DNA of 38,147 nucleotides from Pedosphaera sp. Lineage in GTDB: Bacteria; Verrucomicrobiota; Verrucomicrobiia; Limisphaerales; UBA1100. The position numbers were made by a program, and so were the translations under genes. Below the pieces are notes generated by a model that was given only the letters and a program-made list of their open reading frames with translations, ran no database searches and had not been told where the DNA came from. The stretch spans positions 1 to 38,147 of the forward strand of contig SIAW01000015.1 of assembly GCA_009695465.1 (NCBI GenBank). Direction: 5' to 3'. Position 1 is the first letter of the stretch; every line of letters begins with the position of its first letter. This document shows, piece by piece, positions 486 to 16,332 of the stretch.

Positions 486-2099
486 ATGAAAATCAACCCA
501 CGGAAACTCTGGGCGTTGCTAGTTGTCGTGCTCTTCGTGGCGGCGCTGGCGGGTGTGTGGCTCTTTCGCACGCGCCCGGCTCCGCATCTTATTTCAAGCA
601 AGCCCGTCGCCGCGCCCACCAAACAGGTGCTGCCCGAAAAGCGCATCACCAAACGCCAGCGCTACGTGCAGTTGGACGCCAATGTCGCCAAGATAATTTT
701 GAAGGAGGAAAAGGGCGCGGTGCAGTTGGAGCTTTTCCCGGGCGAAGTCGTCACGGTGGACTTTGAGCGCTCGGATATGGAATCCGCTGAATCCGCCACG
801 GTGACTGGCGGCGTGCGCGGACAACCCGGCAGCGAGGCGGTGTTGATTTCGCACAAAGGCGTCGTGGCCGGTTCCATCATGCTCGGCGACGGCCGTTCGT
901 TCCTCGTCAACTTTGCCGGCGAGAACCGGCATTCGGTCGTGGAACTGGATCCGGACAAGATGGCGCAGCCCGATCATCTCACCCGGCACATGGCGGATAA
1001 AATGCCGCGCAAGCTCCCGCGCAACACCATCATCAGCATGCCGCAACTGCCGTGGAACCAGACGATCCCCGTGCCGGGCATGCCGTGGTTCACCACCACG
1101 CTCATCGGCACGAATCCGTGGCCGCAGGGGCCGCCGGTTTACGGGCCGCCCGTGGTGAGCTTGATGGTGCTTTACACCGCCAAGGCCAGCCAGGAATTGT
1201 CCGGCCTGCTCGGTGTGGAATCGCGCATCCGCTTGGCTGTGGGGCAGGTCAACGCCGCGCTCAAATACAGCGGCACGACCGCCAAGGTTCGCTTGGTGCA
1301 CTCCGAGGAGATTGCCTACAACTCCACTGGCGACCTGCAGACGGATTTGCAGAACATGACCTTTGGCATCGGCCCCGTGATGCCCAAGGTGCATGATCTG
1401 CGCTGGGAACATCGCGCGGATCTCGTCTCGCTGTGGGTGGAATCCAACTCGCAGAATCTCATGCACGGCACCGCGTGGATGCTCACCTCATTTGATCCCG
1501 CACCGGCATTTGGTTTCAACGCCATCGAAGGCATCTACTGCAACACCTCCGTGTTGGCGCATGAGATTGGCCACAACCTCGGTTGCAATCACGCCACCAA
1601 CGACGTGGGCGGATTTTTGCAGGGCGCGTTCACCAATTCCTACGGCTATCGCTTCGGTGTGTTTGATACCAACAGCGGCGTGACGTACAACTTCCGCACG
1701 ATCATGGCTTACGGCGCGGGACGGCAGATTGGATATTTCTCCAACCCCGCAATCAATTTCTGGGGCGTGGCCACTGGCGACACCAACTGGGCCAACAATG
1801 CCTACACGATTGAACGCACCGCGCCGATGGTCGGCAGCTACATGAGTGGCGGCTACGGCCCGCCGTACTATGCGCCCGGTCAGCAGAACGCACAGGCCGT
1901 CGCGCAGGTGGAAAAGAACAACGGACAGCAGAGCAACTTCACCGTGAACTTGAGTGGCGCGGGATCTTCCTCCTCGCAGGGTTCAACGTCCTCCTCGGGA
2001 GCAGGCGCTGCGGCCAACGATCAATCCGGTCCGCAAGCGCCCTTTGACCGGAACAACCTGCGCCTTCCCGCGCGGTCATTCCCCGGCGCGTCCAACTAG
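486..2099 (+). CDS. Membrane-anchored or secreted metzincin-type zinc metalloprotease, paralogue of the upstream gene
   Basis: ATG at 486 gives an N-terminal hydrophobic segment (MKINPRKLWALLVVVLFVAALAGVWLF); HEIGHNLGCNH zinc motif, IMAYG Met-turn, YFSNP; Ser/Gly-rich C-terminal tail. Confidence 0.88.
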   Translation: MKINPRKLWALLVVVLFVAALAGVWLFRTRPAPHLISSKPVAAPTKQVLPEKRITKRQRYVQLDANVAKIILKEEKGAVQLELFPGEVVTVDFERSDMESAESATVTGGVRGQPGSEAVLISHKGVVAGSIMLGDGRSFLVNFAGENRHSVVELDPDKMAQPDHLTRHMADKMPRKLPRNTIISMPQLPWNQTIPVPGMPWFTTTLIGTNPWPQGPPVYGPPVVSLMVLYTAKASQELSGLLGVESRIRLAVGQVNAALKYSGTTAKVRLVHSEEIAYNSTGDLQTDLQNMTFGIGPVMPKVHDLRWEHRADLVSLWVESNSQNLMHGTAWMLTSFDPAPAFGFNAIEGIYCNTSVLAHEIGHNLGCNHATNDVGGFLQGAFTNSYGYRFGVFDTNSGVTYNFRTIMAYGAGRQIGYFSNPAINFWGVATGDTNWANNAYTIERTAPMVGSYMSGGYGPPYYAPGQQNAQAVAQVEKNNGQQSNFTVNLSGAGSSSSQGSTSSSGAGAAANDQSGPQAPFDRNNLRLPARSFPGASN

Positions 2100-3382
2100 T
2101 CCGTCGCGCCGCTGCGCTTGCCGATGCACCACAGGTGCCGGTGCGTGCGCAGAAAAATCTGACCATCGGCCGCCGCCAGCGAGGCATTGGTCAGCGCGCC
2201 GTCCAACGGGTTGGTCGCCAGCAACTCAAACTTCGGCGCCGCGCGCAGCACGTACGTTTCACCGGACTGATTGGGGATATAGATCTTGTCACCCGCCAGC
2301 AGCATGGACGACCACGATTCATTCTTCGCCGCCGCGCCGCGCAGCCGTTCGTTATACACCACCTTGCCCGTCTTCAGTTCAATGCACTCCACAAATCCCG
2401 GCGTGTTGAGCACGTACACATGCCCCGCGTGAATCACGCCCGAGCCTAGCCGGTTCTGCGTGCGCACCGTCTGCCACAACCGATGCGTCGCCGTCACATC
2501 GCCTTTGCCGCCCAACTTCACCGCCTGCGACGTGCCGAAAAATCCGCCCATCGCCACCACCGTGTCTTCGCCCGCGATGGGCGAGGCATAAATCATCGGA
2601 TTCAATCCCGCGCACGACCAACGCACCGCGCCCGTGGCCGGATCCAGCCCGCGCAACTGCCCCGGATGGCTCATCACCAATTCCTCCTGCGCGCCATGTT
2701 TGATGATGATGGGCGTGCTGTACGAGCAGATCCATTCGCGGCTCTTGTTGCCCTTGAAACCGTCCGTGCGATCCTCAATCGCGATGGCCGGATCGTCCCG
2801 GCGCCACACCGTGCGGCCCGTGCGTTTGTCCAACGCCACCAGATGCGCCTGCGGATCGGGGCCGCGGTAGAGAAACACCATGCCACCGTGGATGACCGGT
2901 GAGGCGGCCGCGCCCCACGTGAATCGGATTTTCCCCAAGTCGCGCTTCCACAATTCGCGCCCTTCAAAATCGTAGCAGTACACCCCAGCCGATCCGTACG
3001 TCACCACGACGATCTCCCCGTCCGTGGCCGGTGACTCGGAGCAGAAAGGATTGTCCTCGTGCGACTCCTCCGCCTCCGCATATTTCACCGTGCGCTGCCA
3101 CAGCACGCGACCGTCACGGCGATCCAGACACAGCAACGCGCGCTCGTTGGATTTCTCCAGCGGCTGCGTCAGGAAAATCTTGTCGCCCCAAACGATGGGC
3201 GTTGAATTGCCGCGATCAGGCAGCGCGATCTTCCACGCGATGCTGTTCGTGGCGTTCCATTTTTGCGGCAGCGCCTTTTCATTGGCCGTGCCGCTGCCCG
3301 TTGCGCCGCGCCACATCGGCCAGTTGTCCGCGTGCATCCCAAACGGTGCGACCAGAAGAGCGAGAAGGCAGAGGCGAATCAT
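2096..3382 (-). CDS. Secreted PQQ-like beta-propeller repeat protein
   Basis: Start at MIRLCLLALLVAPFGMHADNWPMWRG (signal peptide); repeated DxxxGxxxW motifs; C-terminal FLRTHRHLWCIGK shared with two paralogues in the window. Confidence 0.85.
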   Translation of the reverse strand: MIRLCLLALLVAPFGMHADNWPMWRGATGSGTANEKALPQKWNATNSIAWKIALPDRGNSTPIVWGDKIFLTQPLEKSNERALLCLDRRDGRVLWQRTVKYAEAEESHEDNPFCSESPATDGEIVVVTYGSAGVYCYDFEGRELWKRDLGKIRFTWGAAASPVIHGGMVFLYRGPDPQAHLVALDKRTGRTVWRRDDPAIAIEDRTDGFKGNKSREWICSYSTPIIIKHGAQEELVMSHPGQLRGLDPATGAVRWSCAGLNPMIYASPIAGEDTVVAMGGFFGTSQAVKLGGKGDVTATHRLWQTVRTQNRLGSGVIHAGHVYVLNTPGFVECIELKTGKVVYNERLRGAAAKNESWSSMLLAGDKIYIPNQSGETYVLRAAPKFELLATNPLDGALTNASLAAADGQIFLRTHRHLWCIGKRSGATD

Positions 3383-3388
3383 GCCGCC

Positions 3389-5982: not shown

Positions 5983-7263
5983 ATGAAAGCCATTTCTGAA
6001 ATTGCACCGGAGAACGGATCGCTTGCACCGGCGCAGGTGGAGGCACTGGTGGCGCAGGCGATGTCCGTGGACGAACATCGCGGGCGTAGATTGTTGGTGA
6101 TCATTCCCGACGCCACGCGCACGGCGCCGGTGGGCCAGATTTTCAAGATGTTGCACGAGCGACTGGGCGCGGTGACGCAGTCGCTGGACGTGATGGTGGC
6201 GCTGGGCACGCATCCGCCGATGAGCGAGGAGGCCATCTGCACGCGGCTGGAGATGACGCTGGAAGAGCGGCGCGGGCGGTACGCGCGCGTGCAGTTTTTT
6301 AATCACGAATGGGACAACCCTGCGGCGCTGCTCCAACTGGGCGTGCTGCCGGCGGCGGAGATTCGTGCGCTTTCGGAGGGGCGCTTTGAGATGGACGTGC
6401 CGGTCACCATCAACCGGCGGGTGTTTGACTACGACCGCCTGCTCATCATCGGGCCGGTGTTCCCGCACGAGGTGGTGGGGTTTTCTGGCGGCAACAAATA
6501 TCTCTTCCCGGGCGTGGCGGGCGCAGAGGTGCTCAACTTCTTCCACTGGCTCGGCGCGGTGGTGTCCAATCCCAAAATCATCGGCAGCAAATGGACGGCG
6601 GTGAGGCGCGTGGTGGATCGCGCCGGCAGTATGGTGAGCGTGGACAAACGTTGCCTGGCCATGGTGGTGCGTCCGGACAAATCGTTGGCGGGACTTTTCT
6701 ACGGGACGCCCGAGACAGCGTGGGACGCCGCCAGTGATCTTTCGGCGCAGGTACACATCGTGCACAAGGATCGTCCGTTCCACACTATCCTTTCCTGCGC
6801 ACCGCCGATGTACGACGACATTTGGGTCGGCGGCAAATGTATGTACAAGCTGGAGCCGGTGCTGGCCGATGGCGGCGAGCTGATCATTTACGGGCCGCAC
6901 ATCCGCGCGATCAGCCACACGCACGGCAAGCTCATCCAAGAGGTGGGCTATCACTGCGAGCCGTACTTGCGCGCGCATTGGGAAAAGCTCAAGCACCTGC
7001 CGTGGGGCATCCTCGCGCATTCCGCGCACGTCAAAGGCATCGGCGCTTTTGTGGATGGCCGGGAAATCCCGCGCGCGCGCGTGACGCTGGCCACGGGCAT
7101 TCCCGAGGAGACCTGTCGCCAAATCAATCTGGGCTACACCGACTGGCGTGCGATTGATGTGGAGTCTTACGCCAACCGCGAAGATGAAGGCGTGCTGCTC
7201 GTGCGCAAGGCTGGCGAGATGCTTTATCACCTGCGCGAACGCCCGGCATGGGCGCGTTCTTAG
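5983..7263 (+). CDS. LarA-family nickel-pincer-dependent racemase/epimerase homologue
   Basis: DATR, GTHPPMS and PHEVVGFSGGNKYLFPGVAGAEVLNFFHW motifs of the LarA family; starts 1 nt after the SDR stop. Confidence 0.88.
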   Translation: MKAISEIAPENGSLAPAQVEALVAQAMSVDEHRGRRLLVIIPDATRTAPVGQIFKMLHERLGAVTQSLDVMVALGTHPPMSEEAICTRLEMTLEERRGRYARVQFFNHEWDNPAALLQLGVLPAAEIRALSEGRFEMDVPVTINRRVFDYDRLLIIGPVFPHEVVGFSGGNKYLFPGVAGAEVLNFFHWLGAVVSNPKIIGSKWTAVRRVVDRAGSMVSVDKRCLAMVVRPDKSLAGLFYGTPETAWDAASDLSAQVHIVHKDRPFHTILSCAPPMYDDIWVGGKCMYKLEPVLADGGELIIYGPHIRAISHTHGKLIQEVGYHCEPYLRAHWEKLKHLPWGILAHSAHVKGIGAFVDGREIPRARVTLATGIPEETCRQINLGYTDWRAIDVESYANREDEGVLLVRKAGEMLYHLRERPAWARS

Positions 7264-7767
7264 TGCGCGGGTTTCATGGGCACGATGTATTGGTAAACTG
7301 GGATGGGCTGCGGATCTTCCGGCACCAGCGCCTTGTAAGTAAACGACGTCGTGACGCCCGGGATGGGGAACGCGACGGCCACCACGCGCGTGCCCGGGCG
7401 CAGTGCTTGCAGGCGCGGCACCAACTGGGCGTGCAGTTCCATCACCAGATACAGGATGACCACGGTGGCTTCCGAGAAATCTTCGACCATCAAATCGCCG
7501 CAGCGCACTTCGACGCGATCGGCCACGCCCGCTGCGGCTGCGGCTTTCATGGTGACGGCCACCAACTTGGGATCGACCTCCACGCCCAACGCGCGGACGC
7601 CTTCATGCTTCGCGGCGGCGATGAGGAAACCGTCCATCACCGCTGCCCAAATCGCAGACGACGTCGCCGGGTTGGAGCTTGAGGGTGGATAACACCGCAT
7701 CCACCGCTCCCAATGGCGTGGGACGGAATGAGACGACTCTGCGGAACAGTAACTGTTCGGACGTCAC
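7260..7767 (-). pseudogene. Small class I SAM-dependent methyltransferase interrupted by a frameshift
   Basis: One frame encodes ...LLFRRVVSFRPTPLGAVDAVLSTLKLQPGDVVCDLGSGDGRF; the next residues FLIAAAKHEGVRALGVEVDPK...GDLMVEDFSEATVVILYLVMELHAQLVPRLQALRPGTRVV lie in another frame. Junction near 7624-7632. Could be a sequencing error rather than a true pseudogene. Confidence 0.78.
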
Positions 7768-8768: not shown

Positions 8769-8851
8769 CTGGGTTTCCCCACAAACGCCGCGCGCAGCGC
8801 CGTCCGCAGGATCGCAGTTTTTCCTTTCCACACCGCGTCGGCTCGCCTTTC

Positions 8852-9964
8852 ATGCGCGGCGTGAACCCCGACATCCGCCCGCCGACGCCGCGACGCCTGG
8901 ACTGGCGCATTGGCGTGTTGGGCAGCGGGTTCATCGTCAGCGATTGCCATCTCGTCGCCTATCGCAAGGCGGGTTTTAATCCCGTGGCCATCGCGTCGCG
9001 CTCGCGCATCAATGCGGAGCGCGCCGCCGCGCGCCACAACATCGACAAGGTGCACGACTCGTTCGAGCATTTGCTCGACGACCCGTCCATCGAAGTGCTC
9101 GACATCGCCGTGCCGCCCAACGCGCAGTTGGCACTCATCAAAGCCGCCTGCGCGCGACGCACGGTCAAGGGCATCCTCGCGCAGAAACCGTTGGGCATGG
9201 ATTACGCCGAGGCGCTGGAAGCCGTGCGCGCGTGCGAGGCCGCCGGCATCGTGCTGGCGGTGAACCAGAACATGCGCTACGACCCCAGCGTGTTTGCCGC
9301 GCGGCAGTTGCTCGATGCAAACGTGCTGGGCGAGCCGGTGCTGGCCAGTATTGATATGCGCGGCATCCCGCACTGGATGCCGTGGCAATCCAAGCTGGGC
9401 TGGGTGACGCTGCGCATCATGTCCATCCATCATCTGGATTGTTTCCGCTACTGGTTTGCGCGGCAGGGCGAACCGGCGCGCATTTTCTGCAGCGTGCGCA
9501 CGGATCCGCGCACGAAATTTCCGCACGCCGACGGCATCGCCGCGTACATCTTGGAATGGGACAACGGCCTGCGCTGCGTGGCGTTGGACGACACGTGGAC
9601 CGGCCCCGCGAAGGAAGGTTGCCCGGCCGACATCCGCATTCACTGGCGCATCGAAGGATTGGATGGACTGGCGATGGGCGACCTCGGCTGGTGTCAAAAC
9701 CCGTACACCACGCCCAGCACGATGCGTTGGGCGCGCAAAGGCGACGCGGGTTTTAACGAGCCGCGCTGGGCGGAGAGCTGGTTCCCCGACGCCTTCATCG
9801 GCACGATGGCGCAACTGCTGTGCGCGCTGGAATCCGGCGCGGCACCGGCCATCGGTGGTCGCGACAATCTCAACACGATGGCGTTGGTGGAGGCGGCCTA
9901 TCGCAGTGTGGCCGCGCGGCGTTCGGTGGCGTTGAGCGAGATCACCGGTGCGGCGCATCCCTGA
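8852..9964 (+). CDS. Gfo/Idh/MocA family oxidoreductase
   Basis: IGVLGSGFIVSDCHLVAYRKAGFNPVAIASRS Rossmann start; DIAVPPNAQ; LAQKPLGMDYAEA (EKP-like). Confidence 0.88.
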   Translation: MRGVNPDIRPPTPRRLDWRIGVLGSGFIVSDCHLVAYRKAGFNPVAIASRSRINAERAAARHNIDKVHDSFEHLLDDPSIEVLDIAVPPNAQLALIKAACARRTVKGILAQKPLGMDYAEALEAVRACEAAGIVLAVNQNMRYDPSVFAARQLLDANVLGEPVLASIDMRGIPHWMPWQSKLGWVTLRIMSIHHLDCFRYWFARQGEPARIFCSVRTDPRTKFPHADGIAAYILEWDNGLRCVALDDTWTGPAKEGCPADIRIHWRIEGLDGLAMGDLGWCQNPYTTPSTMRWARKGDAGFNEPRWAESWFPDAFIGTMAQLLCALESGAAPAIGGRDNLNTMALVEAAYRSVAARRSVALSEITGAAHP

Positions 9965-9975
9965 CGCGGGCACGC

Positions 9976-11118
9976 TTACTTCACGTAAAGCGGTTCTTTG
10001 AGGACGGCCAGCTCGGAGTAATTGCGCAGCCGTTCCATGCCCAGCTTTGAGATGCGGCTGCCAGCAATCAGGAGGATGAGTCCGTCCTTGGTCTCGGCGT
10101 TATCCATGAGGAGTTGGCCGGCCTTGATGTCCGCTGCGCTGAGTTCTTGCACGCCGACCATGTCCGGTGTGGTCGCTTTGGTCACCAGACAGGTGTGGGC
10201 GGCCTCCAGCACGGCCGGGTCATAGACGCCGAAGCGATCCTTCATCATCGCCAGTGCCGTCGGCTTGAATTTCTTTTTCGCCTCGAGGTCGAGCAGGTCG
10301 TTGAGCACTTTCAACATGCGCGCGCCCAGCGGGATTTGGTCGCCCATGACCGCGCCTTCCGGAAATCCTTTGCCGTTGAATTCCTTGTTTTGAAAACGGA
10401 TCATCTCGGCCACGCGCTCGAGCCGCGGCAGATGGTTGATGAGCTTGCTCGTCGTGTCGGGCAACCGCGTGATGATCTGCTGCTCTTCGGGGGAGAGATC
10501 TTCGGCGGCGTTCAATTTCTTCAGGAGGGTCGGCGGCAAGGTCATGTAGCCGAGCGGCGCGAGCATCGCTGCCGTCTCCAATTCCCACAGTGACTCCGCC
10601 TTCATCTCCGTGCCCAGATGATGGATGCACTCGCGCAGTTGTTGGCTGCGGCCAAACTGTTTTGGCGCGGCCATCGCCAGCACCTCGCTCAGAAGCTGCA
10701 GACTGCCATTGAGGGTTTTCTCCAGCAGCTCTGACTCGGCCATGTTGGTGGCGTACTGTTTCTCGGCGGACTCAATGGTATGCAGGAATGTTTCGGGCGC
10801 ACAGTCGTCGGGCAGAAAGGCGAAGATGTGGTCGCGGTTCAAGGCTTCAAACACCACGTCGAGATGGTCGTGCGGCACCAGCAGGATGCGTGTGGTCTTG
10901 GGTGCGCATTCCAATGCCTGGGCCAGAAACGCGATGCCATCACCGTCTGAGCTGCCGCAAGTGCAGAGGACCTCCGCAAAGGGAGGCAACTGGTTCAGCA
11001 ACGCGATGGCCTCGGCGAGATTGTAGGAGACGACCACTTCACGTTCGGGGGTGAGGCTGGCCGCACGGGCCGCCAGTGAACCTCCTTGTACGTCCACCAA
11101 CAGAATGCGTGTAGCCAT
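9976..11118 (-). CDS. Response-regulator-like protein with degenerate receiver and degenerate HD-GYP-like domain
   Basis: MATRILLVDVQ receiver-like N-terminus; C-terminal AAMLAPLGYMTLPPTLLKKL...SPEEQQI...LINHLPRLERVAEMI...FNGKGFPEG...GARMLKVLNDLLDL resembles HD-GYP with the HD and GYP motifs altered. Confidence 0.68.
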   Translation of the reverse strand: MATRILLVDVQGGSLAARAASLTPEREVVVSYNLAEAIALLNQLPPFAEVLCTCGSSDGDGIAFLAQALECAPKTTRILLVPHDHLDVVFEALNRDHIFAFLPDDCAPETFLHTIESAEKQYATNMAESELLEKTLNGSLQLLSEVLAMAAPKQFGRSQQLRECIHHLGTEMKAESLWELETAAMLAPLGYMTLPPTLLKKLNAAEDLSPEEQQIITRLPDTTSKLINHLPRLERVAEMIRFQNKEFNGKGFPEGAVMGDQIPLGARMLKVLNDLLDLEAKKKFKPTALAMMKDRFGVYDPAVLEAAHTCLVTKATTPDMVGVQELSAADIKAGQLLMDNAETKDGLILLIAGSRISKLGMERLRNYSELAVLKEPLYVK

Positions 11119-11182
11119 GTCGAGGGCGACAATAACAGAAAAGCTCGATTTTGCACGCCATGTAGGCAGGCTTCGCCCATCC

Positions 11183-12004
11183 ATGAAACTAGGCATCATC
11201 AACAGCGCGTTCCAGCAGGCCGGTGTGGACACCGCCACGGGACTGCGCCACATCGCACGCATCGGCTTTGATTGCGTGGACATCTTCACCGAGGCCGAGG
11301 GCATTTCCAAAAAGGAAATCAAGCTCGTGCGTGACACCGCCACCAAGCTGGGCTTGCCCATCATCTCGCTGCCGGTCGTGGCGGTGGGGTTGATTGATTT
11401 CAACGACCCCGTGCGCGAGTATCACGTGGCGCGCTGCAAGAAATTCATCGACCTCGCGCACACGTGGGGCGCGCACAACATCCTGCTGGTGCTCGGCGAA
11501 TACATCTGGCAACGCGAAGTCATCCCGCCCGCCGCGCAGTGGCAGTGGGGCATCGAGACCTGCCGTCGCCTCGGCGATTACGCGGGCAAACGCGGCGTGG
11601 ACATCGCGCTGGAGTTAGAGCCGTTCCGCTTGAGCCTGCTCCACAACGTCGGCGAGATGGTGCGCTTCGTGGACGAATGCAATCACCCGCGCGTGCGCGC
11701 GAACATCGACATCAGCCACCTCGTTCTCAGCGACACCTCGCCCGCTGATCTGCGCGCGCTCAAAGGCAAAGCCATCCACGTGCATCTTTCCGATTGCGAC
11801 GGCAAAGTGCACGGCGACCTGCCGCCCGGACGCGGTGTGGTGAAGTTCGCCCCGTACCTGCAGGCCATCAAGGAACTGAAAATTGACGGCGTGGTCTCCA
11901 TCGAGCTGGAATATTCGCCCGACCCCAAACGCATCGTGGATTGGGTCACCGAAGCGTACACGCAAACGGCCAAGCTGATGGATCAAGTCGGCCTGCGCGG
12001 TTGA
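11183..12004 (+). CDS. Sugar phosphate isomerase/epimerase (xylose isomerase-like TIM barrel)
   Basis: MKLGIINSAFQQAGVDTATGLRHIARIGFDCVDIF; ALELEPF; VRANIDISHL; IHVHLSDCDGKVH; GVVSIELEY. Confidence 0.85.
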   Translation: MKLGIINSAFQQAGVDTATGLRHIARIGFDCVDIFTEAEGISKKEIKLVRDTATKLGLPIISLPVVAVGLIDFNDPVREYHVARCKKFIDLAHTWGAHNILLVLGEYIWQREVIPPAAQWQWGIETCRRLGDYAGKRGVDIALELEPFRLSLLHNVGEMVRFVDECNHPRVRANIDISHLVLSDTSPADLRALKGKAIHVHLSDCDGKVHGDLPPGRGVVKFAPYLQAIKELKIDGVVSIELEYSPDPKRIVDWVTEAYTQTAKLMDQVGLRG

Positions 12005-13775: not shown

Positions 13776-15041
13776 ATGCGCACTCTCCAGATGACTTTGT
13801 GGCTGGGCTTTCTCACCTGCACCGTGCACGCGGCGCAATGGCCGGCGTGGCGCGGGCCGACGGGCGACGGGGTCTGCACGGAAAAAGGACTGCCGCTCAA
13901 ATGGGGCGCGAAAGAGAATGTGAAATGGCGCGTGGCACTTCCGGAGCGCGGCAACTCCACGCCCGTCGTCTGGGGCAAGCGCGTGTTCGTGACGCAGCCG
14001 GTGAACGCCGAGCGCATGTTGCTTTGTCTGGATCGCGAGAACGGGCGCGAGCTGTGGCGCGCGGGGGTCAAGGGCGCGGAGCGCGAGCCCTCGCACGGCA
14101 CCAATCCTTTTTGCAGCGGCTCTGCGGCCACGGATGGCGAGCGGGTCATCGTCTGCTTCGCTTCGGCGGGCTTGTTTTGTTTCGACATGGAAGGCGTGGA
14201 AATCTGGCGCCGCGATTTGGGTCTGCAACATCACATCTGGGGTTCGGGGCCGTCGCCGGTGATTTACGGCGACTTGTGCCTGCTCAACTTTGGTCCCAAT
14301 GACAAGACCTCGCTCATCGCCTTCGACAAAAAGACCGGCAAGACGATTTGGAAAAATGATGAGGCCACCGGCTATCAACATCCGCAAGGCGGCGAAAAAG
14401 GAAACCAAGGCAAAACGTACATTGGCTCGTGGACGACGCCCGTGCTGTTCAAGGACAACGACAAGGAAGCGCTCTTGATGTCGTGGCCCGGCCGCCTGTG
14501 TTCGCTCGACCCCAAGACGGGCAAGGAAAATTGGACCTCCAAAGGATTGAACCCGCTGGTGTACACCTCGCCGTTGCATGGCGATGGCATCGCGGTGGGG
14601 ATGGGCGGCTTCGGCGGGATGGGATTGGCCGTGCGCACAGGCGGCAAAGGCGATGTCACCGAGACGCATCGCGTGTGGCACCAGCGCAATTCGCCGCAGC
14701 GCATCGGCTCCGGCGTGGTGCACGAAGGACACATTTACATCCACAACGATCCCGGCACGGCGATGTGCCTCAATCTTAAAACCGGCGTCACGGTCTGGAA
14801 CGAGCGCCTGCCTGCCAAGGCCGGCAGCGGCACCAACTGGAGCAGCGTGATGCTGGCCGACGGCCACTGCTACTCTATCACGCAGGGCGGCGAATGTTTC
14901 GTGTTCAAGGCCAACACGAACTTTGAGCTGGTCGCCACCAACTCGTTGGGTGAGCCGAGCAATTCCTCCATCGCTGCTTCGGACGGCGAGCTGTTCATCC
15001 GCACGCACCGCGCGCTCTGGTGCATCGCCCAGAAAAAATAG
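13776..15041 (+). CDS. Secreted PQQ-like beta-propeller repeat protein (first tandem copy)
   Basis: Signal peptide then [41 protein letters not shown] repeats; C-terminal [15 protein letters not shown]. Confidence 0.87.
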
Positions 15042-15045
15042 GGCC

Positions 15046-16332
15046 ATGAAAAAGTTCCTGTGCGGGCTGTTGATCGCGAGTGGCATCACATCGCTGCGCG
15101 CGGAAAATTGGCCGGCGTGGCGCGGACCGACAGGCAACGGGGTCAGTGCAGAAAAGGAGCTGCCGCTCAAATGGGATGCGCTGGAGAATGTGAAATGGCG
15201 CGTGCCCTTGTCGGAGCGCGGCAATTCCACTCCCGTCATCTGGGGGGATAAAGTCTTCATCACGCAGGCTGGCGATTTGAAACTCTGGCCGCCGAAGGTG
15301 CCCGACAATTTCGCGGGGGGTTCCTCGGCGGGCGGCCATGCGATTGCCGAGAAGCGCTCGGTCCTGTGTTTCAATCGTGCGGACGGCAAACTCCTCTGGC
15401 AGCGCGATGTGATTTACAAGGAACCGGAGATCACGCATCCCACCAATCCTTTCTCTGCCGCGTCGCCAGTGACCGATGGGGAGCGCGTGATTGCCAGTCA
15501 CAACTCGGCGGGCTTGGTCTGTTATGATTTCGAGGGCAAAGAACTTTGGCGATACGACGTCGGCAAACTCGAACACCTGTGGGGCACGGCTTCCTCGCCC
15601 ATTCTTTACGGCGACCTGTGCATTGTTTGGTGCGGTCCCGGCGCGCGGCAGTTCCTTCTCGCGGTCAACAAGAAGACCGGCGCGAAAGTTTGGGAACAGC
15701 CGGAACTGGATGGCGACACGGGCATCACCAGCCGAAAATTTCTTGGCACATGGAGCACGCCCCTCATTGCCAAGGTGGGCGATCAGGATCACCTCATCTT
15801 CGCCGTGCCGCATCGGCTCAAAGGGTACGACCCGAAGACCGGCAAAGAAATCTGGTCGGCCAAAGTGGGCGGCACTTATTGCTATCATTCACCGCTCCAC
15901 GTTGAGGGGAATGCGGTTTTCGGCGCCAGCCTCGTCAAACTCGGTGGCAGCGGCGACATCAGCAAGGGACTGCTTCCGCACCGCGTCGCGGCCATGTACA
16001 TCAGCACCGCTGTGATTGCGGGTGAGCACCTCTACACCTATAACGGCGTCGCTCCCGCCTGCTATGAATGGAAGACGGGGAAGGAACTTTGGAAAAGCCA
16101 GATTGAGCAGCGCCCCGGCGGCAGCGATGCGTGGGGTTCGCCAGTGTATGCTGCGGGACGGATTTACATCGCGGACAGACAAGGGACGACGCTCGTCTTT
16201 GCAGCGGGCGCGAAGTACGAACATCTGGCCACCAACTCGCTCAAAGAGCACACCGACGCTTCCCTCGCGATTTCCAACGGCGACATTTTCATCCGCACCC
16301 ACCGCGCGCTCTGGTGCATCGGGCGCAAGTAA
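15046..16332 (+). CDS. Secreted PQQ-like beta-propeller repeat protein (second tandem copy)
   Basis: [19 protein letters not shown] signal peptide; [42 protein letters not shown] repeats; [14 protein letters not shown]. Confidence 0.88.

Follow-up and report, generated by a model that had tools for sequence, protein, structure and literature searches.

One surplus base breaks the frame of a predicted class I methyltransferase gene at motif I in a Pedosphaera draft assembly

Introduction

The archaeal enzyme aKMT (NCBIfam NF041081; PDB 5FA8 and 5JWJ) is a lysine methyltransferase of broad specificity that acts on proteins, and FAM173B is its distant mammalian homologue (PMC9006661). Among solved structures, the one closest by sequence to the gene studied here is PDB 5BXY, whose depositors named it 'RNA methyltransferase', a name that suggests another substrate. 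As for genes that are read in two frames, the prfB-type +1 elements combine a stop codon at the A site with a slippery CTTT and a Shine-Dalgarno-like AGGGGG three bases upstream (PMC12421855). According to the authors of GeneTack, frame transitions that are confirmed by homology and do not cluster are either sequencing errors or indels that arose recently (PMC3711429).

Here we describe a methyltransferase gene of Pedosphaera sp. that is divided between two frames. The window, the stretch of 38,147 nucleotides that was analysed, makes up the entire contig C93 of a 2.57-Mb draft assembly, which has 130 contigs and 90.6% completeness. The comparison within the genus was made with one other genome, G001, referred to below as the sister species. 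Across the full 38 kb, the window is largely collinear with contig C14 of that genome.

Results

On the minus strand of the window, positions 7260-7767 encode one methyltransferase in two frames, with the switch at motif I. The features of the gene are as follows.

7260-7767, minus strand: whole frameshifted gene, predicted aKMT/FAM173-like class I SAM methyltransferase, from GTG (presumed start) to TAA; 508 bases versus 507 in the orthologue of the sister species (L003:1360-1869)
7603-7767, minus strand: upstream frame with the N-terminus and motif I (DLGSGDGRF), then the out-of-frame PHRRREA and TGA at 7605-7603; matches orthologue residues 17-61
7623-7630, minus strand: frame-switch stretch, reading GTTTCCTC; one base longer than the orthologue in the DNA alignment with the sister species
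7260-7634, minus strand: downstream frame with the remaining methyltransferase domain, TAA at 7262-7260; NF041081 at 54.5 bits, E=1.3e-14

From GTG at 7767 to TAA at 7260 there are 508 bases, one more than a multiple of three. The upstream frame reads ...PTPLGAVDAVLSTLKLQPGDVVCDLGSGDGRF and passes into PHRRREA before its TGA, giving a product of 54 aa if translation begins at GTG 7767, and the +1 frame resumes as DGFLIAAAKHEGVRALGVEVDPKLV...VPMKPAH up to the TAA. The sister species has an intact orthologue, and when this was aligned to the window, its residues 17-61 matched 7761-7627 (E=5.4e-17) and its residues 60-178 matched the adjoining piece 7631-7275 in a different frame (E=2.3e-51). Such a two-frame match is far beyond chance. 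A sequence-only reading of the window had described a methyltransferase split by a 1-nt frameshift exactly in its SAM-binding motif and had predicted one match across two frames for 7260-7767. The alignment bears out the split, its position at motif I and the adjoining pieces, and nothing shows that the position of the break within motif I carries any meaning. The single surplus base was also called correctly, the coordinates given for it (7624-7631) being one too high, as GAGGAAAC occupies 7623-7630. The 146-aa ORF that the same reading had called misleading, a mechanical call at 7700-7260, is indeed so. At its 3' end, the methyltransferase gene overlaps tail to tail with a plus-strand Lar_N (lactate racemase-like) gene by about 4 bases (7260-7263).

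The orthologue in the sister species lies in the same place, flanked by a PhyH dioxygenase gene and the Lar_N gene, and forms a single open frame of 182 aa that is about 71% identical to the window gene. Starting at its ATG opposite the GTG of the window, it has 507 bases, and the DNA alignment of the two genes contains one extra base in the window, the conserved domain being otherwise gap-free. The difference between the two genes is thus one base.

The same comparison revealed two further features of the window. An HD-domain (HD_5) gene at 9976-11403 on the minus strand separates two blocks of the window, 8819-9946 and 11183-12001, whose matches in the sister species are neighbouring genes; the HD_5 gene was therefore either inserted in the lineage of the window or deleted in the sister species. 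Three related coding stretches, at 2099-3385, 13785-15038 and about 15046-16323, are matched by one protein of the sister species at 77%, 51% and 39% identity, respectively, and are paralogues as judged from this shared match. The last of them has no separate best match in the sister species.

The family of the gene was assigned from its intact form. The orthologue carries motif I (DLGxGDGR) and the downstream ATVVxLYL in one domain, as expected of a class I SAM methyltransferase, and so does A1, an alignment built from intact homologues of the order; in the window copy the two motifs sit in different frames. Against Pfam Methyltransf_25 the orthologue scores 31.1 bits, above the cut-off of 27. 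Its best named family is NF041081 (82.4 bits, E=3.1e-23), which is also the best named family of the downstream fragment of the window (54.5 bits). With an equivalog cut-off of 200 bits, far above both scores, the gene is a relative of aKMT rather than a proven aKMT; the window copy differs further in being frame-broken. The best-matching solved structure is PDB 5BXY (E=3.4e-25, residues 25-148), and the orthologue also matches PDB 5fa8 (E=1.2e-22) and 5jwj (E=2e-21). By these similarities the gene belongs to the class I methyltransferases on the aKMT / FAM173 (ATPSc-KMT) side and likely encodes a protein-lysine methyltransferase, the substrate class being predicted from its relatives.

The A1 alignment, used as a query, recovered over 570 relatives from named genomes. 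Eighty of them were fetched, and the frame runs through motif I without a break in all 80, as shown by a motif pattern for 77 and by eye for the other three, which had failed the pattern. A scan of genome contigs with the downstream fragment alone gave no match, and a second methyltransferase copy (paralogue) was not found in the source genome. Within the family, a strong methyltransferase match is present in only 2 of 20 genomes, both of this genus. Comparison with related genomes had been proposed for this locus, along with the possibility that homologues begin at the second frame only; no relative examined begins there. Given the intact orthologue and the 80 continuous relatives, this assembly is the only one of all those examined to have the frame break.

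Then, how long has the frame been broken? Between the window and the sister species, substitutions at the first, second and third codon positions number 12, 9 and 25 over 46 codons of the upstream part and 20, 11 and 47 over 90 codons of the downstream part. Third-position GC is high in the two parts, 0.69 and 0.80, compared with 0.79-0.82 in control genes, and the alignment of the gene holds no further indel or stop. The predominance of third-position divergence in both parts, together with the lack of any other indel or stop, indicates either a recent break or an artefact. This pattern implies that, until recently, the two parts evolved together in a single coding frame and that selection at the protein level acted on the gene up to the very recent past, if it does not continue today.

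The rate of frame breaks was assessed over stretches of the two genomes (G000 and G001) that yielded 51 gene-level matches in 59 kb. The methyltransferase gene is the sole confirmed split among them. A second apparent split, in C2 at about 15.9-16.1 kb, was judged an artefact in which a gene, extended from stop to stop, overlaps the opposite strand of its neighbour. With no other confirmed break in this set, the assembly is not generally error-prone. One split in 51 matches and 59 kb is compatible with ordinary pseudogenes and also with occasional assembly error.

Discussion

Compared with its intact orthologue, this methyltransferase gene most probably carries one isolated single-base insertion that breaks the frame and arose by recent mutation or by error, with no recoding involved; we put the probability of this reading at about 0.93. 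That the insertion is a real and recent mutation we regard as an even bet. If the extra base is real, ribosomes that begin at the normal start would terminate no more than about 10 codons from the break. The resulting 54-aa product would retain motif I but nothing further of the catalytic domain, and the product of any internal start would lack motif I, so that the enzyme would have been lost, probably recently, in this strain. If the base is not real, the gene would be intact and the break would stem from an error in the local consensus or assembly.

This second form of the reading, a pure assembly or consensus error with an intact gene in the organism, has somewhat under an even chance. The window is one contig of a 130-contig draft with 90.6% completeness, the gene bears no other sign of decay, and homology-validated singletons are expected by the GeneTack authors to be mainly sequencing errors (PMC3711429). 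On the other hand, the switch falls at TTT then CC rather than in a long homopolymer, and the 59 kb of compared genes held no further confirmed frame break. The locus resembles the GeneTack singleton class 'hypothetical pseudogene / sequencing error' in that it is found in one genome only, is confirmed by homologues and lies at a site that is not conserved.

Could the two frames be joined during translation? Slippage is not forbidden by the local TTT-C sequence, because tRNA-Phe can pair again in the +1 frame when TTT is followed by C, and conservation of the downstream frame is good. It is nevertheless very improbable that the enzyme is regulated by programmed +1 ribosomal frameshifting at this TTT-C. 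The orthologue of the same genus and all 80 relatives use one frame, and the site is therefore not conserved as in a programmed +1 frameshift gene. The A site has no stop codon, the 0-frame TGA following some 20 bases further on, and there is no AGGGGG-like Shine-Dalgarno sequence at the prfB spacing (PMC12421855); in ...GATGGACGG TTT CCT CAT... none of the prfB-type elements (A-site stop, CTTT, AGGGGG) is present. The predicted RNA fold is unremarkable and not better than those of shuffled sequences (z = -0.85). A recoding site specific to this species alone, where slippage on TTT-C would yield a low level of full-length methyltransferase, we consider equally far-fetched. The sequence-only reading had listed recent mutation, sequencing or assembly error, and programmed frameshifting side by side: the first two remain, and the third is disfavoured by the intact syntenic orthologue, the 80 of 80 distant relatives in a single frame and the lack of a visible recoding signal. 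Nor does the switch carry the tandem repeat or long homopolymer of a phase-variable gene, the longest run being TTT with no tandem unit visible by eye. Two separate or coupled products, a short upstream peptide and a downstream restart at the ATG at 7637-7635, would make use of an in-frame ATG just before the junction and of two overlapping frames, but this arrangement is most unlikely, as motif I, which class I methyltransferases need for SAM binding, would be missing from the downstream product, and none of the relatives examined starts at that ATG position.

The isolated single-base insertion is an ordinary finding in a known kind of gene, a recent single-base mutation or an assembly error. 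Its bearing is mainly on annotation, as an automatic caller would give a misleading 146-aa ORF here or score the methyltransferase as absent, though it is intact in the sister species. If the mutation is real, it would represent the young loss of a patchily distributed and probably dispensable methyltransferase.
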